From: Crenobacter luteus
Lineage (GTDB): Bacteria; Pseudomonadota; Gammaproteobacteria; Burkholderiales; Chromobacteriaceae
NCBI RefSeq assembly: GCF_004345725.1
Contig: NZ_SLXG01000011.1
Span: 1-64,000 of the forward strand
Direction of reading: 5' to 3'
DNA length: 64,000 nucleotides
The position numbers were made by a program, and so were the translations under genes. Below the pieces are notes generated by a model, which saw only the letters and a program-made list of their open reading frames with translations, made no database searches and was not told the origin of the DNA. Shown here piece after piece: positions 21,519 to 63,046 of the stretch. Numbering within the stretch: the stretch's first letter is position 1; each line of letters starts with the position of its first letter.

Positions 21519-22007
21519 TCAGACGGCGTCGGGCGGCACCAGCCGGGCGATGTCGTCGACCAGTTCGTGCGGCCGCACGCCCGGTTCGTAGCGCTTGACC
21601 AGCCGCCCCTGCGAATCGATCAGGAACTTGGTGAAGTTCCACTTCACCGGCTGCGGGTAGGGGCTGTCGGCGCCGGTCAGCCAGCGCCACAGCGGCGGCG
21701 CGGCCGGGCCGTTGACGTCGACCTTGGCGAACAGCGGGAAGCTGACGTCGAAACGACGCTTGCAGAACTCGGCGATCGCCGCGGCGCTGCCCGGCTCCTG
21801 GCCGCCGAACTGGTTGCACGGAAAGCCGAGCACCGCGAAACGCTCGGCACCGAAATGCCGGTACAGCTCTTCGAGCCCCTCGTACTGCGGCGTGTAGCCG
21901 CACTCGCTGGCGGTATTGACCACCAGCACCACGCGGCCGCGGTAGTCGGCGAGGGCCTCGGACTCGCCGGACAGCCGCTCGGCGTCAAAGTCGTAAAGCG
22001 TAGTCAT
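21519..22007 (-). CDS. Glutathione peroxidase family protein (Cys type)
   Basis: 162 residues with no signal peptide. The catalytic Cys is in NTASECGYTPQY (about residue 36), the Gln is in GFPCNQFGGQEPG, and the Trp is in WNFTKFL. The second Cys (FPCNQF) is typical of enzymes that use thioredoxin rather than glutathione. It reduces peroxides. The stop codon abuts the repeat-pair terminator. Confidence 0.92.
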   Translation of the reverse strand: MTTLYDFDAERLSGESEALADYRGRVVLVVNTASECGYTPQYEGLEELYRHFGAERFAVLGFPCNQFGGQEPGSAAAIAEFCKRRFDVSFPLFAKVDVNGPAAPPLWRWLTGADSPYPQPVKWNFTKFLIDSQGRLVKRYEPGVRPHELVDDIARLVPPDAV

Positions 22008-22552: not shown

Positions 22553-22576
22553 AACGCCCGGCCAAGGCCGGGCGTT
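22553..22576. terminator. Terminator between the DUF1841 gene and the photoreceptor operon
   Basis: AACGCCCGGCC (22553-22563) and GGCCGGGCGTT (22566-22576) form an 11-bp hairpin between convergent genes. The flanking T's are short. Confidence 0.7.
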
Positions 22577-22600: not shown

Positions 22601-23509
22601 TCAGGTCGCGTTCCGCCGCGCGCGCCAGTCGTCGAGCGCGACGTCGATCGCCTCGAGCGAGCCCATCAGCCGCAACCAAGGCGCCGCACTCTTGAGCCCG
22701 ACGCAACCGCCGCCGCCGATCCAGACCTCGGTCGTGTCGGACAGCAGCGGCCGCAGGCGCGCGACCTCGTCCAGCGGCGCGCCCTGGTACGCCACCGAGA
22801 ACGACAAGGCGACCACGTCGACCCGGTGCTTGGCCGCCGCCGCCGCGATGTCCGCCAGCGGCAGCTCGGTGCCGAATCCTATGGTTTGCGCGCCGGACAG
22901 GCGCAAGATGGCCTCGACCATCATCAGGCCGATCGAGTGCCCCTCGCCCTGACAGGTGGTCAGCATCACGCGCGGCGGCGCGCCGGGGACCGGCATCGCC
23001 GCCAGCGTCTCGCGCAGCAGGCGCTTGACCTCCTCGGTATAGAGGTGCTCCTCGTGCACCTGGATATCGCCGCGCATCCACGCGTCGCCGACCACGGTGT
23101 TCGCGTGCGGCAGGAATTCGGTCACGAAGCGCCGCAGCCCCAGCTCCAGCAGGCGCCGCTGCATCAGCTCGCGCAGCGCGTGCGCGTCGTGGCCGGTGAG
23201 CCGCTCGACGAAGCCGGCGCAGATCTCCGGCACCGGCCGCTCGGGCCGGTTGGCGACGGCGAGCTCGGCCAACTCGGCGTCGGACAACTTCACCAGCTTG
23301 CCCGGCCGGAACCCCATGTCCATCAGGCGCCGGACCAGACGCAGCTTGTCGACCTCGCCGGCCGTGTATACCCGGTCGCCAGCCGCGTCGCGCGCCGGCG
23401 CCGGGAAGCCGTAGCGCCGCTCCCACATGCGCAGCAGCTCCTTGGGAATGCCGGTTTCCCGCTCGACGGCGGCGATCGGCAGGCCGATCAGCCCCTCGTT
23501 CCCAGCCAT
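22601..23509 (-). CDS. CarH/LitR-type MerR regulator with B12 light-sensing domain
   Basis: 302 residues from MAGNEGLIG, chosen for its GGGAGG ribosome-binding site. The MerR HTH is IAAVERETGIPKELLRMWERRYGFP. The middle helical bundle carries W-x9-E-H (W in GDAWMRGD, EH in HEEHLY), the signature of adenosylcobalamin photoreceptors. The Rossmann part has the E-x-H-x-x-G cobalamin-ligand motif (GEGHSIG). In known members AdoCbl supports tetramer binding to the operator in the dark, and light breaks it. It is the last gene of the operon it presumably represses. Confidence 0.88.
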   Translation of the reverse strand: MAGNEGLIGLPIAAVERETGIPKELLRMWERRYGFPAPARDAAGDRVYTAGEVDKLRLVRRLMDMGFRPGKLVKLSDAELAELAVANRPERPVPEICAGFVERLTGHDAHALRELMQRRLLELGLRRFVTEFLPHANTVVGDAWMRGDIQVHEEHLYTEEVKRLLRETLAAMPVPGAPPRVMLTTCQGEGHSIGLMMVEAILRLSGAQTIGFGTELPLADIAAAAAKHRVDVVALSFSVAYQGAPLDEVARLRPLLSDTTEVWIGGGGCVGLKSAAPWLRLMGSLEAIDVALDDWRARRNAT

Positions 23510-23539
23510 CTTCCCTCCCGCCAGAATCAAAGCGCCCGA

Positions 23540-23953
23540 TTATGCCATGCGCCGTTTGAGACACCGAAGCAGGCCACCGACGATGGGCACGCGTTCGTAC
23601 ACGCCCTCGGCGGCGTCCCAGTAGTCGCGGTGCTCGGCGATCAGCCCGGCCTCGTTGAGCACAAACAGCGTGCCGCCGTGCAGACCGTGCCGGCGCCCGG
23701 CCGGGCCGTATTCGAAATCCCAGGTGACGAAGGCGCGCCGGCCGTCATGCAGGCGTTCGCGCACGACAAAGCGCGGCGCGTCGAGCCGCTCGAACATGCG
23801 CGCGTACAGCCGCGCGATCGCGTCGCGCCCCTCGAGCGCGTTGAAGGGGTCGCGAAAGCGCGCGCCTTGCGCGTAGACGCGGTCGATCGCCGTCAGCGAC
23901 GCCGGCGTCAGCGCCTCGAACCAGGCCAGGTGCGTGTCGAGCGGATCGTTCAT
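23540..23953 (-). CDS. SnoaL-like / NTF2-fold protein
   Basis: 137 residues. A cone-shaped NTF2-like fold is indicated by WFEALTPASLTAIDRVYAQGARFRDP near the N-terminus and a central strand FVVRERLHDGRRAFVTWDFEY. Such proteins accompany Cfa, DUF1365 and FAD oxidase genes in light- or singlet-oxygen-regulated clusters. The substrate is unknown. The ATG overlaps the SDR stop. Confidence 0.8.
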   Translation of the reverse strand: MNDPLDTHLAWFEALTPASLTAIDRVYAQGARFRDPFNALEGRDAIARLYARMFERLDAPRFVVRERLHDGRRAFVTWDFEYGPAGRRHGLHGGTLFVLNEAGLIAEHRDYWDAAEGVYERVPIVGGLLRCLKRRMA

Positions 23954-24726
23954 AGTCCGGTCACCTTGTGCAGCAGCGGAAAGTAAGCGCGGTAGGGCAG
24001 CTTGGCCATCAGCCTGACCTGGCGTGCAAAGCGGCGCGGGAAGGCGATGTGGAAGTCGCCGGCCTCGAAGCCGGCGATCATCGCGTCGGCGGCCGCTTCG
24101 GGCGTCAGCAGCCCGGGCATCGCGAAGTCGTTGCCGGCGGTCAGCCGGGTGGCGACAAAGCCGGGGTTGACCAGGTAGACCGGCACGCCGCGCGGCGCGA
24201 GGTCGAAGTAGAGCGTCTCGGCGAAGTTGACCAGCGCCGCCTTGGTCGCGCCGTACACCAGCGCGTTCGGCATCCCGCACAGACCCGAGAGGCTCGCGAC
24301 CACCGCGATGCCCCAGTCGCCGGCGTCGGCGCGCGCCGTCGTCAGCGGCATCAGCGCCGCGACGCCGTTCATCACGCCCAGCAGGTTGACCTCGACAAGG
24401 CGGCGCGCGGTGGCCGCGTCGAGCTCCCAGGCGCGCACCGCGCGGTAGTCGCCGGCGAGCATCACCGTCAGGTCGACGGCGCCCCACTCGTTGGCCAGCG
24501 TGCGCGCCGCGCCCTCCCAGGCCGCCGCGTCGGTCACGTCCAGCGGCAGCACCCGCATGCGGGCAGCCGCGACCTCGGCCAACGCCTCCTCGCTACGGCC
24601 GGATACCGCGACCTGCGCGCCGCGCCCGGCCAGCCGCCGCGCCAGCGCCGCGCCGATGCCGTGGCTCGCGCCGACCAGCCAGACGCGCCGGCCCTGCCAG
24701 TCTGCGATCGGCGGGTTCAGGCTCAC
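23950..24726 (-). CDS. Short-chain dehydrogenase/reductase
   Basis: 258 residues. NAD(P) binding is through VGASHGIGAALARRL (residues 18-32), and catalysis through Ser (VASLSG) and the Y-x-x-x-K of VYGATKAAL. The C-terminus is hydrophobic and ends in ALLHK-type sequence, suggesting membrane association and a lipid-like substrate. It overlaps both neighbours by 4 bp (ATGA). Confidence 0.88.
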   Translation of the reverse strand: MSLNPPIADWQGRRVWLVGASHGIGAALARRLAGRGAQVAVSGRSEEALAEVAAARMRVLPLDVTDAAAWEGAARTLANEWGAVDLTVMLAGDYRAVRAWELDAATARRLVEVNLLGVMNGVAALMPLTTARADAGDWGIAVVASLSGLCGMPNALVYGATKAALVNFAETLYFDLAPRGVPVYLVNPGFVATRLTAGNDFAMPGLLTPEAAADAMIAGFEAGDFHIAFPRRFARQVRLMAKLPYRAYFPLLHKVTGL

Positions 24727-25292
24727 GGCCGCGGCCCCTTGCGGAAGAACAGCGTCACCTCGCCCAGCCTGAGGCCGAACTTCTTCATCTCGGAGCGGTT
24801 GATCATCGTCGCGGCGTCGACCTGGTACATCCAGTCGTCGAAGTCGACCTCATACTCCTTGTCGCCGACCTGCAGCTTCAGCGTGTAGGCCCAGCGCAGC
24901 GCGTAGCCGACCGTCTTGCCGCGCGCGACGCCGACCACGTCGCTGGCGGTGCCGGTGTACTCGCCGTTCTCCCCCTTCTTGACCGTCCACACCCGCCGGC
25001 GGCGTTCGCCGTCGTCGTAGACGAAGCGCTCGTCTATCGTGCCGGTGTCGCCCTTCCAGTGCGCGTCGATCTGCACCGTGAAGCGCCGGATCACCTTGCC
25101 CGAGCGGTCCTGGAACATGCCCCAGGCGGTGATCGGGCCGTCGAAGTAGCGCACCAGGTCGAGCTGGGGGCGGGTGCCCCGGTAGTCGTCGAGCCGCGCG
25201 CTGCCGCAACCGGCGGGCAACAGCAGCAACAGCGCGACAACCGGCCACCAGCGGCGCGGCAGAAGAGAGGGGCGGAACGGGTCGGTTTTCAT
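24723..25292 (-). CDS. DUF3833 lipoprotein
   Basis: 189 residues. The N-terminus has a membrane segment (WWPVVALLLLLPAGC) ending in a likely lipobox Cys at residue 29. The mature part matches DUF3833: LDLVRYFDGPITAWGMFQDR and a C-terminal DDWMYQVDAATMINRSEMKKFG. It is envelope-localised and of unknown function, common in Cfa/DUF1365 clusters. It overlaps the MFS gene stop and start by 4 bp. Confidence 0.85.
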   Translation of the reverse strand: MKTDPFRPSLLPRRWWPVVALLLLLPAGCGSARLDDYRGTRPQLDLVRYFDGPITAWGMFQDRSGKVIRRFTVQIDAHWKGDTGTIDERFVYDDGERRRRVWTVKKGENGEYTGTASDVVGVARGKTVGYALRWAYTLKLQVGDKEYEVDFDDWMYQVDAATMINRSEMKKFGLRLGEVTLFFRKGPRP

Positions 25293-26518
25293 CGGGCGAC
25301 CTCCAGCAGGGGGCGCGAACGCACCAGGACGGCGACGGCGGCGAGCTTCACCGCGCAGGGCAAGGCGGCGTACCAGAACGACAGCGCCGCGGCGCCGGAC
25401 GGATCGCCCGGACGGTAGCCGGCCCAGTCGACCAGCGGCAGCGCGACGCCGGCCGCCAGCGCCAGCGCCAGCTTGTTGACGAGGCTGACGCCGCCGAAAT
25501 AGGCGCCGCCGGAGCCGTCGACCGCACGACCGATCGCGCGCGCGACCAGGCTGGTCGCGAACGCGAGGTCGGCGCCGAGCGCGACGCCGGTCGCCGCGCA
25601 GACCGCGACGAAGGCCGCCGCGTCTCCCGCGTCCAGCCACGGCACGGCGACGAAACCGGCGACGGCGAGCGCGAGACCGGCCAGCCAGGCGTTCACCGTG
25701 CCGACGCGCCCGGCCAGCCACACCCAGCCGGGCAGGCTCGCGACCGCGGCGAGAAAGTAGACGAGCAGGAAGGCGCCGCTCAGCTCGCGCGCCGCGAGCA
25801 CGTCGGCGACGAAGAAGTTGACCAGCGTCGCCGGCAGCGACATCGCCAGCGCGTTCAGGAACAGCACCCCCAACAGCGCGAGGTAGGCGCGGTCGGCGAG
25901 CACCGCGCGCCACGAGCCAGGCTCGGCCAACCTCGGCGGCTCGGCCGGCGCCGCCAGCAGCGCGAGTAGCGACAAGACGGCGCCGGCCGCCAGCAGCGCC
26001 GCGAACAGCAGCAGCCCGGCGTCCTGACCGTAGCGGCCGGCCAGCCACGCCGGCAGCGCGGCGGCCAGCAGCACGCCGATCACGCCGGCTCCCTCGCGCC
26101 AGGCGACCACGCGCAAGCGCGTCGGCTCGTCGCGCCCGAGCGCGGCGCCGTAGCGCAGCAGCGCGATATTGAGCCAGCCGTGCGCGGTGTAGACGCAGAG
26201 CAGGCTGAGCGCGAGCTGCCACAGCAGGCCGCCGCCGACCGGCGCGACCAGCCAGACGAAGCCGGCCAGGCCGAGCACGGCGAAGGCGCCGACGGCGGCA
26301 AGGCGCGCGGCACGGCCGAGCCGGTCCTGCCACCAGCCGATCAGCGGGTCCTGGGCGGTATCGATCAGGCGGGTGAAGAAGAACACGCCGCCGAGCACCG
26401 CGAGCGGCACGCCGTGGCGCTCGGCGTACAGGGCCGGCACGTGGACGTAGACCGGCAACGCGACCATCGCCAGCGGCAGCGCGCCGGCACCGGCGCAGGC
26501 GAGGTCGCGCGCCCTCAT
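25289..26518 (-). CDS. MFS transporter (GPH-like) of the photo-stress operon
   Basis: 409 residues with about 12 hydrophobic segments. FFFTRLIDTAQDPLIGWWQDR matches the GPH/MFS_2 signature with the D-P-x-x-G-x-x-x-D motif between helices 2 and 3. The cargo is unknown; in this context it may move a lipid precursor or a terpenoid or aromatic compound. A repeat-family copy at 25922 encodes R-L-A-E in the central loop. Confidence 0.82.
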   Translation of the reverse strand: MRARDLACAGAGALPLAMVALPVYVHVPALYAERHGVPLAVLGGVFFFTRLIDTAQDPLIGWWQDRLGRAARLAAVGAFAVLGLAGFVWLVAPVGGGLLWQLALSLLCVYTAHGWLNIALLRYGAALGRDEPTRLRVVAWREGAGVIGVLLAAALPAWLAGRYGQDAGLLLFAALLAAGAVLSLLALLAAPAEPPRLAEPGSWRAVLADRAYLALLGVLFLNALAMSLPATLVNFFVADVLAARELSGAFLLVYFLAAVASLPGWVWLAGRVGTVNAWLAGLALAVAGFVAVPWLDAGDAAAFVAVCAATGVALGADLAFATSLVARAIGRAVDGSGGAYFGGVSLVNKLALALAAGVALPLVDWAGYRPGDPSGAAALSFWYAALPCAVKLAAVAVLVRSRPLLEVAR

Positions 26519-27042
26519 GGCGCCCCCCTGCCCAGCAGGGCCTCGCGCAGGCGCGCCTCGCGGGTCGCCTCGTCCAGCCAGATCGAGAAGAAGCGGCGCG
26601 CGAAGGCCGCCTCGTCGATGCGTCCCAGGTAGCGGCCGTTGTGCCAGAACGCCGCGCCGGCGCCGTCCATCAGCCCGATGATCGTGTCGCCGCGCCGCAC
26701 GTCGGGAAACAGCCGACTCATGCGCGCGTACCAGCGCGTGCGTTCGGCCTCGCTCTGGCCGAAACGGTCCATCTCGTCGCGGCTGACCCGCGCGATCGCC
26801 GCGCCGTCGACGTCGCGCGCGTAGCTGAGCTTGAGCGCGAACGGGCGCTCCCAGGAAAACGGCGCGCCGGCCTCGGTGTAGAGCGTCGCGTCGTAGAGCT
26901 TCAGCCCCAGCCAGCGCATCGCGCCGCTGCCGCGCGCCACGAGCGCCGGCTCGCGCGCCTCGAGCACCGCGGGCAATTGCGCCCACGCCGGCGCCGCCAG
27001 CAGCGCCAGGCTAAGGACGACGGATTTCCAGTTGCCAGACAT
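26515..27042 (-). CDS. Chalcone isomerase-like periplasmic protein
   Basis: 175 residues with a signal peptide (MSGNWKSVVLSLALLAAPAWA, cleavage near residue 21). The mature sequence (GSGAMRWLGLKLYDATLYT, LKLSYARDVDGAAIARVSRDEM, FWHNGRYLGRID) matches the chalcone isomerase-like domain that accompanies Cfa and DUF1365 genes. Bacterial members may bind fatty acids; activity is not established. Its 5' end overlaps cfa by 32 bp. Confidence 0.85.
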   Translation of the reverse strand: MSGNWKSVVLSLALLAAPAWAQLPAVLEAREPALVARGSGAMRWLGLKLYDATLYTEAGAPFSWERPFALKLSYARDVDGAAIARVSRDEMDRFGQSEAERTRWYARMSRLFPDVRRGDTIIGLMDGAGAAFWHNGRYLGRIDEAAFARRFFSIWLDEATREARLREALLGRGAP

Positions 27043-28234
27043 CGGTTCGCCCCGCCGTAAAGCCGGCCTCGCAATAAGCCAGGTAGAAACGCCACAGCCG
27101 CACGAAATCCTCGTCGAAGCCCAGCGAGCGCACCCGCGGCAGCGCCGCCTCGAAGGCCCGCGCCCAGCGGCGCAGCGTTTCGGCGTAGTCGTGGCCGAAG
27201 GCGAAGCGGTCGGCCAGTTCGAGACCGGCCGCCGCGATCGCACGCGCCAGCGCCGACGGCGACGGCAGCATGCCGCCCGGAAAGATATATTGCTGGATGA
27301 AGTCGGTGCCGCGCCGGTAGCGCGGAAAGTGCTCGTCGGCGATGGTGATGCCCTGCACCATCGCGCGGCCCCCCGGCGCCAGCCGCTCGCGCAGCACGGC
27401 GAAGTAGGTCGGCCACCAGCGCTCGCCGACCGCCTCGATCATCTCGATCGACACCACGTGGTCGTAACGGCCTCCGACGTCGCGATAGTCGGCCAGTTCG
27501 AACCTGGCCGAGCCGGCCAGCCCGGCGCGCGCCAGCCGCGCGCGCGCGTAGTCGAGCTGCTCGGTCGACAGCGTGATGCCGGTCAGCTGCACGCCGCGGG
27601 TCCGGATCGCGTATTCGGCGAAGCCGCCCCAGCCGCAGCCGATCTCGAGCAACGTCGCGCCGGGCTTGGGGTCGAGCCGGGCGAGAATGCGCTCGTACTT
27701 GGCCTCCTGCGCCGACGCGAGCGAGCGCTGCGGCTGACCGTCGAACAGCGCCGACGAGTAGCTCATCGTCGAGTCCAGCCACAGGCGGTAGAAGGCGTTG
27801 CCCAGGTCGTAATGGGCGTGGATGTTGCGACGGCTGCCGCGACGGGTATTGGCGCGCCGCAGGTGGCGCAGCCAGTAGGCGAGCGTGCCGAGCAGCCGGC
27901 CGTGGATCGGCCTGCTGAAAGCCGCCTCGTTGGCGAGCGCCAGCGCCATCAGCGTGCTCCAGTGCGGGCTGTCGACCTGACCGTCGCGGTAGGCCTCGGC
28001 CAACCCGATGTCGCCCGATAGCATGATGCGGCCCACCGCACGCCAGTCGCGTATCGTCAGCTCGGCACGGCGGCCCGGCCGGTGGCCGCAGAAGCGGTGG
28101 CGCGCGCCGTCGGGCGTGCAGACTAGCAACTCGCCGGTTTCGATACGCGCCAGCGTGGCGAACAACGCGCGCGCCGCCGCCGGCGGCAGCGGCGCGACGA
28201 TGGCGGGCGAACGGGGGGACGAATCGGAGCTCAT
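27011..28234 (-). CDS. cfa: Cyclopropane-fatty-acyl-phospholipid synthase-like methyltransferase
   Basis: 407 residues from MSSDSSPRSP, with ribosome-binding site AGGAG. The SAM-dependent core has LLEIGCGWGGFAEYA (SAM loop), the Cfa block NIHAHYDLGNAFYRLWLD, and FIQQYIFPGG, YAETLRRW and FVRLWRFYLAYCEAGF. It methylates double bonds of membrane phospholipid chains. In the Rhodobacter photo-oxidative cluster a related enzyme takes part in making unusual (furan) fatty acids, a possible role here given the same neighbours. Confidence 0.9.
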   Translation of the reverse strand: MSSDSSPRSPAIVAPLPPAAARALFATLARIETGELLVCTPDGARHRFCGHRPGRRAELTIRDWRAVGRIMLSGDIGLAEAYRDGQVDSPHWSTLMALALANEAAFSRPIHGRLLGTLAYWLRHLRRANTRRGSRRNIHAHYDLGNAFYRLWLDSTMSYSSALFDGQPQRSLASAQEAKYERILARLDPKPGATLLEIGCGWGGFAEYAIRTRGVQLTGITLSTEQLDYARARLARAGLAGSARFELADYRDVGGRYDHVVSIEMIEAVGERWWPTYFAVLRERLAPGGRAMVQGITIADEHFPRYRRGTDFIQQYIFPGGMLPSPSALARAIAAAGLELADRFAFGHDYAETLRRWARAFEAALPRVRSLGFDEDFVRLWRFYLAYCEAGFTAGRTDVWQLEIRRP

Positions 28235-28980
28235 CCTGCTCTCCTTGCCGTGGTGTCGGACGGACGACCCTGTTTTCCGAAGAAAGGCACCCGCTTGAAG
28301 CCCAGGCGCAGCGCCTGCCAATGGATGCGCAGCAGCACGAGCGCACTCGAACACAAGGGGGCGATTAATCCCAGCTTAGTCAAGACACGCGCGCGACCGG
28401 AAAGAGTCGCGGAAAAGTCGGCGCTCCCCTCCTCCCGGCCATAGTCGATCCGGACGACGCAGGCCCCGTCACGCGGGTCGCGCACCCGGAAACGGTAGCG
28501 GCCCTCGACCCGGAAGAAGGGCGAGACGTGCAGGCGCTTGACCGCCACCAGGCTGTCGCCCGGCCCGATCGGCCCGCCGTCCGGGCGGCGCAGGCAGTAG
28601 TCGTGCCGCTCGCCGAAGGTATTGCGCACCTCGGCCCACAGCGCGACCAGCGCGTCGCGCTCGTCGTAGACGAAGTAGAAGCTGACCGGGTTGAACACCC
28701 GGCCGAAGAGTGCGGGCATCGTGTGCAGTTCGGCGCGCGCCGCCGCGGCGAGCCCTTGCTCGGCCAAGCGCTCGCTCAGCCACGGCCACAACGGCGCGCC
28801 GTCGCACGGACCGTGGTGCTCGCGCCGCCAACTGAGCGCCGGCCCCAGACGCAGGACGGGCTCGTCGGCCTGCGGCAGCGCCACCGCGATCCAGCCGTGT
28901 GGATAGCGAAAGGCGTGCTCGGCCACCGCGTGGCGCGCGTGCCACACCGTGCCGCGGAACAGCCGCACGCAGGCATTCAT
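28231..28980 (-). CDS. DUF1365 protein
   Basis: 249 residues. Family motifs are LFRGTVWHARHAVAEHAFRY at the N-terminus, FGRVFNPVSFYFVYD in the centre and KRLHVSPFF (a His/Lys-rich conserved site). DUF1365 proteins are always found beside Cfa-like and FAD oxidase genes and are required in photo-oxidative lipid metabolism of some species; the biochemistry is unsettled. It overlaps both neighbours by 4 bp. Confidence 0.88.
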   Translation of the reverse strand: MNACVRLFRGTVWHARHAVAEHAFRYPHGWIAVALPQADEPVLRLGPALSWRREHHGPCDGAPLWPWLSERLAEQGLAAAARAELHTMPALFGRVFNPVSFYFVYDERDALVALWAEVRNTFGERHDYCLRRPDGGPIGPGDSLVAVKRLHVSPFFRVEGRYRFRVRDPRDGACVVRIDYGREEGSADFSATLSGRARVLTKLGLIAPLCSSALVLLRIHWQALRLGFKRVPFFGKQGRPSDTTARRAG

Positions 28981-30299
28981 GCCGGCTCCCGGACCGCCGC
29001 GCTCCCGAGCGCACGGAGCCCCTCGACGGGTGCGCTGCCGCCGGCGGACAACCACGGCACCGGCGCGCCGAGCGCCTGCGCGACCGCCATGCCCGCCTTC
29101 AGCCCGTCCTCGTGGAAACCGTAACCGGCCCAGGCGCCGGCGTACCAGGTGCGATGCCGCCCCTGCAGTTCGGCAAGCCGGCGCTGCGCGGCGATGGCCG
29201 CCGAGTCGAACACCGGGTGCTCGTAGTCGAAGCTCTGCCAGACCGACTCGGGCTCGCGGTAGGGATTGAGCGTGACGATCACCGGCGAGGCGAACGGCAA
29301 GGGCTGCAGCTTGTTGATGAGGTAGCTGACCATGCTCGGCGCCTCGCTGACGCCGCCCTCGGCCATGCGGTAATTCCAGGCCGCCCAGACGGCACGGCGG
29401 CCGGGCAGGAAAGAGACGTCTGCGTGCAGCACCGCGCGGTTGCGCTGGTAGCGGATCGCCGACAGCACCGCGTATTCGGCGTCCGAAGTCTCGGCCAACA
29501 TGCGCAGCGCCTGGTCGGCGTGGCAGGCCAGCACCACCTGCTCGAAACGCTCGCGGCCGCGCGGGCTGCGCAGCGTCACACCCGCCGCGTCGCGCACGAC
29601 GCGCTCGACCGGACAGGACACGCGCACGTCGGCGACCGCCGCGACCATGCGCGCGACGTATTCGCGCGCGCCGCCGAGCACGGTGCGCCACTGCGGCCGG
29701 CCAAAGAGCTGCATCAGGCCGTGGTTGGCGCAGAACTCGAACAGCGTCGCGGCCGGGAAGTCGGCGACGTGACGGGTCGAGCCGGACCAGATCGCGGCGC
29801 ACATCGGGTACAGATACCAGTCGCGCATCGGTGCACCGAAGCGGTGGCGCGCCAGCAGTTCGCCCAGCGTCTCGCCGCTGCGCCGGGCCTCGTCGAGCAT
29901 GCGCGGCGCGCTGCGATGCAGGCGCAGCACGTCGCCCAGCATGCCCCAAAAACGCGGCCTCACCAGGTTGCGCCGCTGCGCAAACAGCGTCGCGAGGCTG
30001 GTGCCGGCCCATTCGAGCGCTTCCTTGTCGAGGCTGACCGAAAAGCTCATCTCGCTGGGATGGGTCGCCACGCCCAAGTGTTCGAACAGCGCGATCAGGT
30101 TCGGATAGGTGCGGTCGTTGTGAACCAGGAAACCGGTATCGACCGGCGCGCTCAGGCCGTTCAGCGTCACGTCGACGGTATTGCTGTGCCCGCCGACGTA
30201 GTCGTTGGCCTCGAACAGGGTGACGCGATGGCCGGCGCGGCTGAGCAGCCAGGCGGACGACAAACCGGCGATGCCGGAACCGATGACGGCGATATTCAT
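28977..30299 (-). CDS. FAD-dependent amine-oxidase-like oxidoreductase
   Basis: 440 residues from MNIAVIGSGIAGLSSAWLLS, preceded by GGAGG. The N-terminal Rossmann motif (GSGIAGLSSAWLL ... LFEANDYVGGHSNT) binds FAD. The C-terminal FAD contact is WYAGAWAGYGFHEDGLKAG. It is the first gene of a nine-gene operon (30299 to 22601) linked by ATGA overlaps. Its partner genes suggest oxidation or desaturation of a membrane lipid. The promoter and palindrome lie about 55-100 bp upstream. Confidence 0.88.
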   Translation of the reverse strand: MNIAVIGSGIAGLSSAWLLSRAGHRVTLFEANDYVGGHSNTVDVTLNGLSAPVDTGFLVHNDRTYPNLIALFEHLGVATHPSEMSFSVSLDKEALEWAGTSLATLFAQRRNLVRPRFWGMLGDVLRLHRSAPRMLDEARRSGETLGELLARHRFGAPMRDWYLYPMCAAIWSGSTRHVADFPAATLFEFCANHGLMQLFGRPQWRTVLGGAREYVARMVAAVADVRVSCPVERVVRDAAGVTLRSPRGRERFEQVVLACHADQALRMLAETSDAEYAVLSAIRYQRNRAVLHADVSFLPGRRAVWAAWNYRMAEGGVSEAPSMVSYLINKLQPLPFASPVIVTLNPYREPESVWQSFDYEHPVFDSAAIAAQRRLAELQGRHRTWYAGAWAGYGFHEDGLKAGMAVAQALGAPVPWLSAGGSAPVEGLRALGSAAVREPA

Positions 30300-30354: not shown

Positions 30355-30402
30355 TTTATCCGATCACCCCGGTTATTTGTCAATATTTTGTATTATACAA
30401 AA
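30355..30402 (-). promoter_or_regulatory. Photo-stress operon promoter with 17-bp palindromic operator
   Basis: On the minus strand -35 TTGACA (30378-30383) and -10 GATAAA (30355-30360) are separated by 17 bp. Immediately upstream is the perfect palindrome TTTTGTATTATACAAAA (30386-30402), whose arms carry TNTACA-like half-sites as in CarH/LitR operators. The operon's last gene encodes such a regulator. Confidence 0.75.
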
Positions 30403-61373: not shown

Positions 61374-61612
61374 AAACGTCGCCACCCCGCCACAAGACAC
61401 GTCATCCCAGACGGCAAATCACGCCATCAAATCATTGATTAATAAGAGAAAACAAAAAAACAACAACGGTTGCGCAATTGCAACACCACCCAGCGCAAGC
61501 GCCGAATGTGTTGTAAAAGCGCCGCAGTTTCGCCCGAAAAATCCCGACCAAACGCCTTTGCCTGTCCGCTTGTCCCATACAAAATAGCGGCTGCTTTGTG
61601 AAGGAGTGTGTC
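61374..61612. other. Control region upstream of phr
   Basis: AT-rich relative to its surroundings. It holds a GTTGC-N6-GCAAC dyad (61469-61484) and two TACA-bearing half-sites (TTGTAAA near 61512, CATACAAAAT near 61577) resembling halves of the photo-stress operator palindrome. No full palindrome or strong consensus promoter is seen. Confidence 0.4.
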
Positions 61613-63046
61613 ATGCCCGACGTCAGCCACGCGCTGTGCTGGTTCCGCCGCGACCTGCGCGACTTCGACCACGCGGCGCTGTTTCACGCGCTCAAGCAGA
61701 GCCGGCGCGTCACGCCGGTGTTCGTGTTCGACCGCGCCCTGCTCGAGCCGCTGCCGCGCGACGACCGGCGCGTCGCCTTCATCTGGCAGGCGCTGGCCGA
61801 GCTGAAGGCTTCGCTGCGCACGGCTGGCAGCGATCTGCTCGTCCGCGTCGGCGACCCGGCCGAGGCGATCCCCGCGCTGGCGCGCGAGCTGGGCGCCGGT
61901 GCGGTGTTCGCCAACCGCGACTACGAGCCGCAGGCGATCGCGCGCGACGCGGCGGTCGGGAGAACGTTGGCCGAGCAGGGCGTCGCCTGGCACGACTGCA
62001 AGGATCAGGTGATCTTCGAGCGCGACGAGGTGCTCAGCGGCGCCGGCCGGCCGTACACGGTGTTCACCCCCTACCGCAAGGCGTGGCGGCAGAGGCTCGA
62101 CGCCTTCCAGTTGAAAAGCTACCCGGTCGACCGCTACCGCGAGCGGCTCGCGCGCTTTACCGCCGGCCCGCTGCCGACCCTGGCCGAGCTCGGCTTCGAC
62201 GCGGTCGACCTGGCCGCGCTCGGCGTCAGGTGCGGCATGTCGGGCGGCGCGGCGCTGTTCGCCGACTTCATCGCCCGCGTCGGCCATTACAAGGCGTGGC
62301 GCGACTTTCCGGCGGTCAAGGGCGTGTCCTACCTGTCGGCCCACCTGCGCTTCGGCACGGTGTCGATCCGCGAGCTGGCGCGCTTCGCGCACGAGGAAGG
62401 CAGCGAGGGCGCCGAGGTCTGGCTGGATGAGCTGATCTGGCGCGAGTTCTACCAGCAGCTGTTGTGGCACTTCCCGCACGTCGCGCACAGCAGCTTCAAG
62501 CCCGACTACGCCAGGCTGCCCTTCCCCAACGACGAGGCGTGGTTCGCCGCCTGGTGCGAGGGGCGCACCGGCTACCCGCTGGTCGACGCGGCGATGCGTC
62601 AGCTGAACCGCACCGGCTACATGCACAACCGGCTGCGCATGGTGGCGGCGAGCTTCCTCGTCAAGGACCTGCTGATCGACTGGCGCCGGGGCGAGCGCTA
62701 CTTCGCCGAAAAGCTGCTCGACTTCGAGCTCGCGTCGAACAACGGCGGCTGGCAGTGGGCGGCGTCGACCGGCTGCGACGCGCAGCCGTGGTTCCGCATC
62801 TTCAACCCGGTCACCCAGTCGCAGAAGTTCGACCCGCAGGGTCGCTTCATCCGCCGCTATGTGCCGGAGCTGGCGGCGCTCGACGACGCGGCGATCCACG
62901 CGCCGTGGCAGGCCAAGCGGCTGCCGGCCGGCTTCGCGCTCGGCCGCGACTATCCGGCGCCCATCGTCGAGCACGCCGTGCAGCGCGAAAAGGCGCTGGC
63001 GCTGTTCGGCCGGCGCGGCGGCGCAGCGGCCGGCGCCGACCGATAA
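61613..63046 (+). CDS. phr: Deoxyribodipyrimidine photolyase (class I CPD)
   Basis: 477 residues from ATG 61613 (AAGGAG upstream; an in-frame GTG five codons earlier overlaps that site). The N-terminal antenna domain starts CWFRRDLRDFDHAAL. The FAD domain has TGYPLVDAAMRQLNRTGYMHNRLRMV, WQWAASTG and FNPVTQSQKFDP. It repairs cyclobutane pyrimidine dimers with blue light. In other genomes it clusters with LitR-type genes; here it stands alone 31 kb away. Confidence 0.95.
   Translation: MPDVSHALCWFRRDLRDFDHAALFHALKQSRRVTPVFVFDRALLEPLPRDDRRVAFIWQALAELKASLRTAGSDLLVRVGDPAEAIPALARELGAGAVFANRDYEPQAIARDAAVGRTLAEQGVAWHDCKDQVIFERDEVLSGAGRPYTVFTPYRKAWRQRLDAFQLKSYPVDRYRERLARFTAGPLPTLAELGFDAVDLAALGVRCGMSGGAALFADFIARVGHYKAWRDFPAVKGVSYLSAHLRFGTVSIRELARFAHEEGSEGAEVWLDELIWREFYQQLLWHFPHVAHSSFKPDYARLPFPNDEAWFAAWCEGRTGYPLVDAAMRQLNRTGYMHNRLRMVAASFLVKDLLIDWRRGERYFAEKLLDFELASNNGGWQWAASTGCDAQPWFRIFNPVTQSQKFDPQGRFIRRYVPELAALDDAAIHAPWQAKRLPAGFALGRDYPAPIVEHAVQREKALALFGRRGGAAAGADR

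Follow-up and report, generated by a model that had tools for sequence, protein, structure and literature searches.

The first 64,000 nucleotides of contig NZ_SLXG01000011.1 from Crenobacter luteus, the stretch analysed here and called the window, carry nine genes on the minus strand (22601-30299), the last of which encodes a predicted B12-binding regulator, LitR. This locus raises two questions, namely what its enzymes make and what switches them on. The most probable answer, at about 77%, is that the genes form a furan-fatty-acid (ufa) operon under the control of an adenosylcobalamin (AdoCbl) photorepressor that the operon itself encodes. Judged from its sequence, light appears to induce the operon by way of this B12 photoreceptor, and its product is likely a methyl-furan fatty acid, a scavenger of singlet oxygen in the membrane. 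Both the AdoCbl-type control and the membrane-lipid role that an initial annotation had predicted are strongly supported by the sequence, through a conserved operator, a recurring neighbourhood and recurrent targets. The operator, the further candidate targets and the absence of the bis-His residue are additions of the present analysis.

In the proposed mechanism, AdoCbl-bound LitR would in the dark occupy the palindrome TTGTATAATACAA beside the -35 element, blocking transcription of its own operon, and in the light photolysis of the Co-C bond would free it from the DNA. As shown for the homologous enzymes, UfaM would then methylate cis-vaccenoyl phospholipids, UfaD would desaturate the methylated chain, and UfaO would add O2-derived oxygen to yield a methyl-furan acyl chain, which would scavenge membrane singlet oxygen. 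Since the regulator is predicted to be shared with a photolyase, gpx-folE2, a PAS chemoreceptor and ferrochelatase, light would jointly raise repair, peroxide removal and the consumption of the photosensitiser protoporphyrin IX.

The regulator and its operator

LitR matches the TransRegCarH model with an E-value of 2.5e-37 (128.7 bits, below the cut-off of 400) and full-length Thermus CarH (5c8d) with an E-value of 9.2e-29, and it carries the MerR recognition motif RxWERRY as RMWERRY. Its AlphaFold2 (AF2) model (predicted local distance difference test, pLDDT, 90.7) superposes on the CarH cobalamin domain 8c73 with a Z-score of 20.2 and a root-mean-square deviation (rmsd) of 2.5 over 193 residues; for 5c8e the Z-score is 20.3 over 263 residues with an rmsd of 17.4, presumably owing to a different placement of the domains. 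The motifs W-x9-E-H (WMRGDIQVHEEH) and E-x-H-x-x-G (EGHSIG) noted at first reading are both present. The longer B12 motif reported for class I CarH/LitR proteins, D/ExHx2G/P-x41-SxT/V-x22-27-GG (PMC9304148), is found as EGHSIG, x41, SFS, x26 and GG, the serine in third place of SxT/V being a small departure, and the Trp and Glu in contact with the adenosyl group are conserved. Class II LitR-LOV proteins retain the four-helix part only and are switched by a LOV partner, whereas the window LitR has a complete B12 Rossmann domain; the presence of this B12-binding domain rules out the class II type for it.

Three B12-binding matches were found in the genome. Two of them fall within longer frames, of 1245 and 693 amino acids (the latter below cut-off), and LitR is therefore the only short B12-binding protein of the genome. 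A PduO-type adenosyltransferase is also encoded (PF01923, E 1.9e-56); no match to a BtuR-type adenosyltransferase was found in the same genome.

Of 399 genomes drawn from the order, 163 (C. luteus among them) encode a UfaO homologue, and the neighbourhoods of the 80 best-scoring of the 162 other matches were surveyed, a selection biased toward the window's type. The full set of eight non-regulator genes is seen again in 54 of these 80 regions and a LitR homologue lies within the flank in 55, which argues that the grouping is not due to chance.

The predicted operator adjoins the predicted promoter (Table 1). Upstream of ufaD the sequence reads TTTTTGTATAATACAAAATATTGACA-N17-GATAAA, and the ACA of the -35 element sits 11 bp from that of the palindrome. 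At the same place, four sister-genus genomes (L037-L040) have TTGTACAGGACAA-N4-TTGACA-N17-GATAAC, and a fifth has TTGTACAGTACAA upstream of its ufa operon. Conservation was assessed in 105 regions with divergent LitR and ufa genes, comprising 48 from the order survey and 60 from a second genome-contig set less three duplicates; 20 of the 80 loci of the second set, having no divergent ufa gene, were dropped from this count. As controls, 100 dinucleotide shuffles were used, together with 20 ufa promoters from loci without LitR (those that could be parsed out of 25, at 229 bases apiece as against about 330). The sequence TTGTMYNRKACAA was found in 51 of the 105 regions (0.00 in shuffles) and TGTMYNRKACA in 75 (0.24). 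The combination TnnACA-N5-TTGACA occurs in 21 (0.02), falling to 2 with a spacer one shorter (0.07) and to 6 with one longer (0.06). None of these patterns was found in the 20 LitR-less promoters. At 16 sites of other loci, TTGACW on the operon strand begins 5 bp past the 11-bp core, which is the window's spacing, and at 7 sites it begins 6 bp past it; between adjacent sites the distance is 63 bp for 11 of the 25 pairs.

Of the tandem 11-bp repeats, nnnnTnnACAn, that characterise class I CarH/LitR operators, the window has a single exact copy (TTGACA) and, at a distance of 11 bp, a degenerate one (AATACA), in addition to the inverted repeat. A purely canonical tandem-repeat operator was dropped as a description, the inverted repeat coming first in the data. 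Thermus thermophilus CarH is alike in its domain plan, its B12 pocket motifs (model Z-score of about 20), and in a -35 element within a TnnACA repeat at 11-bp spacing to a second ACA. It is unlike the window LitR, which lacks His132, has mainly an inverted repeat as operator, and is predicted to target photo-oxidation defence rather than carotenoid genes.

Table 1. Features of the ufa operon and of the photolyase locus, in window coordinates.
Feature	Coordinates	Strand	Remarks
Predicted LitR operator TTGTATAATACAA	30388..30400		Conserved in relatives
Predicted -35, TTGACA	30378..30383	-	Gap of 4 bp to the 13-bp palindrome and of 5 bp to the 11-bp core within it
Predicted -10, GATAAA, 17-bp spacer	30355..30360	-	By sequence; absent from the output of the consensus scanner, which requires a T in sixth place
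ufaD-like flavin adenine dinucleotide (FAD)-dependent oxidase/desaturase	28977..30299	-	Amino_oxidase E 7.3e-25
ufaO-like DUF1365 protein, predicted O2-dependent furan-forming enzyme	28231..28980	-	DUF1365 E 4.4e-54
ufaM-like S-adenosylmethionine methyltransferase, CMAS family	27011..28234	-	CMAS E 2.5e-82
Chalcone_3 (chalcone isomerase-like)	26515..27042	-	Pfam E 9.9e-12; signal-like N-terminus by eye
MFS_2 transporter	25289..26518	-	Pfam E 1.6e-41
DUF3833 protein	24723..25292	-	Pfam E 2.5e-70; lipobox-like N-terminus by eye
SDR oxidoreductase, GTG start	23950..24726	-	adh_short E 2.8e-36
SnoaL_2/NTF2-like protein	23540..23953	-	SnoaL_2 E 7.2e-19
litR, predicted class I CarH/LitR-type AdoCbl repressor, operon-terminal	22601..23509	-	MerR_1 and B12-binding (Pfam)
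Terminator-like hairpin after litR	22553..22576	-	By eye; not listed by the terminator scanner
Second LitR-like site TTGTCCCATACAA, before photolyase	61570..61582		Has TTGTNNNNNACAAAATA in common with the operon site
Photolyase gene, candidate regulon member	61613..63046	+	FAD_binding_7 E 8.1e-90; only match in the genome

The nine open reading frames belong to the Pfam families first assigned to them, and six of their eight junctions are overlaps of the ATGA/GTGA type, in line with the mostly ATGA overlaps first described; the others are a 32-nt overlap (UfaM/Chalcone_3) and a 30-nt gap (SnoaL/regulator). Read by eye, the likelier start of litR is the ATG at 23509 behind GGGAGGG rather than the TTG at 23530. 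A terminator-like hairpin at 30430-30417 ends the upstream 2-hydroxyacid dehydrogenase gene and, with that after litR (22576-22553), makes the operon look like a closed unit. Downstream on litR's strand, past an opposing DUF1841 gene, lies a glutathione peroxidase gene (21519-22007), where no loose LitR-like site was found.

Candidate targets and the His132 position

LitR probably also controls genes beyond the ufa operon, as suggested by the distribution of its predicted site. A loose form, TTGTN5ACAA, matches the genome 13 times, and the reversed control 9 times. The strict form fits four of these, which lie at the ufa operon, the photolyase, gpx-folE2 (contig 3) and a gene for a methyl-accepting chemotaxis protein (MCP) with two PAS domains (PAS-PAS-MCP; contig 2). 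The sequence TTGTNNNNNACAAAATA shared by the operon and photolyase sites occurs twice in the window and not at all in 100 shuffles. In many relatives gpx (family F20) and folE2 (F13; Pfam-checked) sit between LitR and UfaD; folE2 was found in just 2 of the 11 family genomes in which conservation of the gpx-folE2 site was examined.

A looser site, TTGTCCACGACAA, lies three bases ahead of the start of hemH, the ferrochelatase gene, at positions -16 to -4 (L128 1501-1513, own contig 22). At the identical place a site is intact in three relatives (G027, G156, G341) and decayed in two (G223, G392). Among the family genomes, it is thus present in 4 of the 6 that have a LitR-ufa operon (own included) and in none of the 6 that lack one, as judged at the ufa locus. 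The PAS-PAS-MCP site, about 180 bp upstream of its gene (L118 1501-1513, L168 3071-3083, own contig 2), recurs in 3 of 5 relatives with the operon. In the five LitR-bearing sister-genus genomes the strict pattern has 15 places (control 6), namely five at ufa, three at hemH, three at MCP homologues, one at an SDR gene near a photolyase-like gene, and three others. In the six other genomes it has 8 (control 13), and none of the 7 examined lies at hemH, MCP, ufa or photolyase. In E. coli, hemH mutants are reported to accumulate protoporphyrin IX and to move away from blue light (PMC12627116), and in a Myxococcus xanthus hemH mutant light-induced carotenogenesis is reported to be enhanced (PMC8156234); these phenotypes make hemH and a chemoreceptor sensible partners in a light regulon. 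In the literature searched, as far as its text was available, no report of hemH under LitR was found.

Three loci were recorded in passing. The SDR-gene site mentioned above is at L152 2486-2498 (G341), and another strict site lies upstream of a divergent FAD amine-oxidase-like gene (L150 2375-2387, G027). On a Comamonas endophytica plasmid (L281), LitR lies between two genes for methyl-accepting chemotaxis proteins, and a BLUF gene is close by.

The residue following the B12-pocket Trp is of particular interest for the mode of release. In light-exposed T. thermophilus CarH (TtCarH), His132, beside Trp131, is described as becoming the second cobalt ligand, giving a bis-His state (PMC10442372). 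This residue was read in 132 distinct LitRs, being 56 from the order survey (window included) and 80 from the second set less four duplicates, which represent the closest homologues and not the whole family. None has His; the residues are M in 35, A in 30, E in 17, V in 17, L in 16, I in 7, S in 5, G in 2, T in 2 and Q in 1, and both B12 motifs (Wx9EH and ExHxxG) are kept in all 132. Among distant CarH controls that could be read, Thermus has His and four other betaproteobacterial plasmid LitRs have E, E, A and A; two rhizobial hits gave no match to the motif search for this position. Elsewhere, CtMerR is reported to have Arg here (PMC11796333), and many myxobacterial CarH homologues to have His (PMC9304148). 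With the bis-His ligand missing, release of LitR must rest on adenosyl loss or another ligand change; the branch would have either another release step or no light response by dissociation.

Several observations weigh against control of the operon by light through LitR. No match to the 11-mer was found in 30 of the 105 divergent regions, and the operator counts are not fully independent, because a few of the counted loci had served for deriving the pattern by eye. The loose pattern, hardly enriched genome-wide, says little alone. The hemH site of C. luteus itself fails the strict pattern, and the photolyase site was not found in the 110 bases upstream of the gene in any of the five sister-genus genomes. 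The window LitR has Met at the His132 position and thus lacks the bis-His feature, which is common in class I and does not define it. Finally, TtCarH H132A is reported to monomerise poorly, remaining mostly tetrameric after light, although the same paper cites an older, opposite report (PMC10442372). Being confined to the one genome, the photolyase site led to rejection of the photolyase as a family-conserved regulon member.

The last two of these points, together with the absence of His from all 132 proteins, favour the idea that LitR senses AdoCbl supply and not light, in which case it would stay bound after photolysis and the operon would be induced by B12 shortage or oxidised cobalamin. 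This alternative appears unlikely, however, as the candidate targets (photolyase, folE2, gpx, hemH and ufa) form a light and photo-oxidation set and the adenosyl-contacting Trp and Glu are retained. Moreover, class II LitR is reported to place ufaM, folE2 and phrB under light control in Pseudomonas putida (PMC8508746), and in P. putida and P. mendocina the light-regulated clusters of class II LitR-LOV contain ufaM, an FAD oxidoreductase, SDR, phrB, folE/folE2 and cryB (PMC9758184, PMC8508746). As far as these sources were available, light control of ufaM is thus known for the B12-less class II LitR of Pseudomonas, and the B12 version is new. No class I CarH/LitR joined with furan-fatty-acid genes was found in the literature searched, in the parts available, with Sumi 2018/2020 (J. 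Bacteriol.) outside its scope. Class II LitR has also been tied to RudS (PMC11417400), and for Vibrio cholerae regulation by blue light that involves ChrR and a MerR protein is described (PMC5241685).

The predicted product

The photorepressor reading leaves the question of what the operon makes. In Rhodobacter sphaeroides, RSP1091 (UfaD), RSP1090 (UfaO, DUF1365) and RSP2144 (UfaM) are reported to make a methyl-furan fatty acid from cis-vaccenoyl phospholipid chains, and in Rhodopseudomonas palustris RPA2571-2569 do the same and suffice for it (PMC7380195). Singlet oxygen is reported to make the acid disappear and to kill cells that cannot produce it (PMC7380195). By family, without alignment to the R. 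sphaeroides proteins, UfaD-, UfaO- and UfaM-type genes are all found together in the window operon. As its first three genes they follow the order of the R. palustris locus numbers, the ufaD-like gene being at the place of RPA2571. It is because of these families that a methyl-furan fatty acid is the likely product. The initial annotation had called the product unknown and possibly a modified fatty acid; this description can now be narrowed.

The systems differ in that the R. sphaeroides ufa genes belong to a ChrR/singlet-oxygen response with ufaM elsewhere, whereas the window has ufaM in the operon, along with Chalcone_3, SnoaL and the terminal LitR. They are alike in that RSP1087-1091 also holds three genes, RSP1087-1089, which are reported to be dispensable for the acid (PMC7380195). 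By the same token, the five accessory genes of the window lie outside what the three-step pathway explains. We take RSP1087-1089 to be MFS, DUF3833 and SDR proteins.

These five genes could be taken to mean that the operon modifies acyl chains in another way, for instance to a cyclopropane or a methyl-branched acid. The methyltransferase, a member of the CMAS family, does have cyclopropane-fatty-acid (CFA) synthases and mycobacterial UmaA among its relatives in the PDB. It scores, however, below the cut-offs of every NCBIfam CFA-synthase model that it matches (one at 275.7 bits against 600). The position that is His in the CFA synthases 5z9o and 7qos is moreover Gln in this protein, a replacement seen in 61 of 61 parsed UfaM rows (79 rows, window included; 18 unparsed). 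With UfaD and UfaO families in first and second place, in the order of three R. palustris genes that suffice for the furan acid, a different acyl product seems very unlikely.

The closest PDB relative of the ufaD-like protein is the amine oxidase LkcE (E 7.9e-46 to 1.1e-45). All four PDB matches of the MFS_2 protein (E up to 0.01; best 8.6e-7) are MFSD2A lysophosphatidylcholine symporters, which suits a lipid role. For UfaO, no solved relative was found by sequence (PDB, E up to 1), and its AF2 model (pLDDT 85.6) gave no Foldseek match at E up to 0.001. The model is strand-rich, with weak calycin-type matches to nitrobindin (the best, E 7.9e-3, TM-score 0.32) and the fatty-acid-binding-protein-like Ycf58. 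Together with His 14, 126 and 151, invariant in 17 aligned sequences, these matches offer a lead to a possible cofactor.

Different regulators beside the ufa genes

The same enzymes are found beside different regulators. A divergent TetR-family gene occurs in 14 of the 80 surveyed regions, never together with LitR; 3 of the 25 LitR-less regions are short or incomplete stretches. LitR itself is divergent at 48 loci of the order survey and on the operon's strand at 8 (window included). In the second set the arrangement is divergent at 60 of 80, on the operon's strand at 5, and at 15 without an adjoining ufa-operon gene in either of these arrangements. Every operon-terminal LitR of both sets falls in one 13-row branch (Shimodaira-Hasegawa-like approximate likelihood ratio test, SH-aLRT, 98). 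This branch holds the window, five sister-genus genomes, L106, L115 (identical to L250, Chitinilyticum aquatile), three Moraxellaceae, a Sedimenticola locus, and Fluviicoccus, whose LitR stands without ufa genes. In the three Moraxellaceae (L199-L201) the ufa genes are followed on the same strand by litR and then directly by a photolyase; L199 has the window's own core, TGTATAATACA, upstream of ufaD, and in L200 no strict operator match was found in the stretch examined.

Outside this branch, plasmid pAZKH of Azoarcus sp. KH32C carries the same eight genes with LitR divergent, and the ufa genes of Cupriavidus pinatubonensis adjoin a divergent helix-turn-helix regulator. In Burkholderia anthina they lie beside a sigma factor and an RskA-type anti-sigma factor, not ChrR. 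In Rhizobium daejeonense ufaDOM lies beside a sigma factor and ChrR, so that the initial view of the enzymes' relatives as members of RpoE-ChrR regulons holds elsewhere. That RpoE-ChrR makes the window operon, too, respond to singlet oxygen and leaves LitR the part of a minor modulator, as these relatives and R. sphaeroides might suggest, has a probability close to nil, given a sigma-70-like promoter with an adjoining LitR site, no ChrR among the nine genes, and a sole Cupin_7 match in the genome of 25.1 bits against a cut-off of 27; RpoE-ChrR control of this copy was accordingly set aside.

These arrangements raise the possibility, at somewhat less than even odds as a whole, that the ufa cassette has been rewired repeatedly, to light (LitR), to singlet oxygen (sigma/ChrR) and to TetR-type control, and that in a large, mostly betaproteobacterial LitR branch, whose switching does without bis-His ligation, it has joined an anti-photo-oxidation programme. 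On this same tentative joint reading the programme would be anticipatory, combining furan lipids, photolyase, gpx/FolE2 and a PAS chemoreceptor with a ferrochelatase that drains protoporphyrin IX before singlet oxygen forms.

The LitRs without His132 constitute a natural test of the current bis-His claim on B12 photoreceptors: should they still let go of DNA in the light, the general trigger would have to be something other than bis-His ligation. Control of ferrochelatase by light, if true, would be a simple means of lowering the photosensitiser load. For common non-phototrophic bacteria, the operon provides a predicted direct light switch for furan fatty acids, a poorly understood membrane antioxidant.

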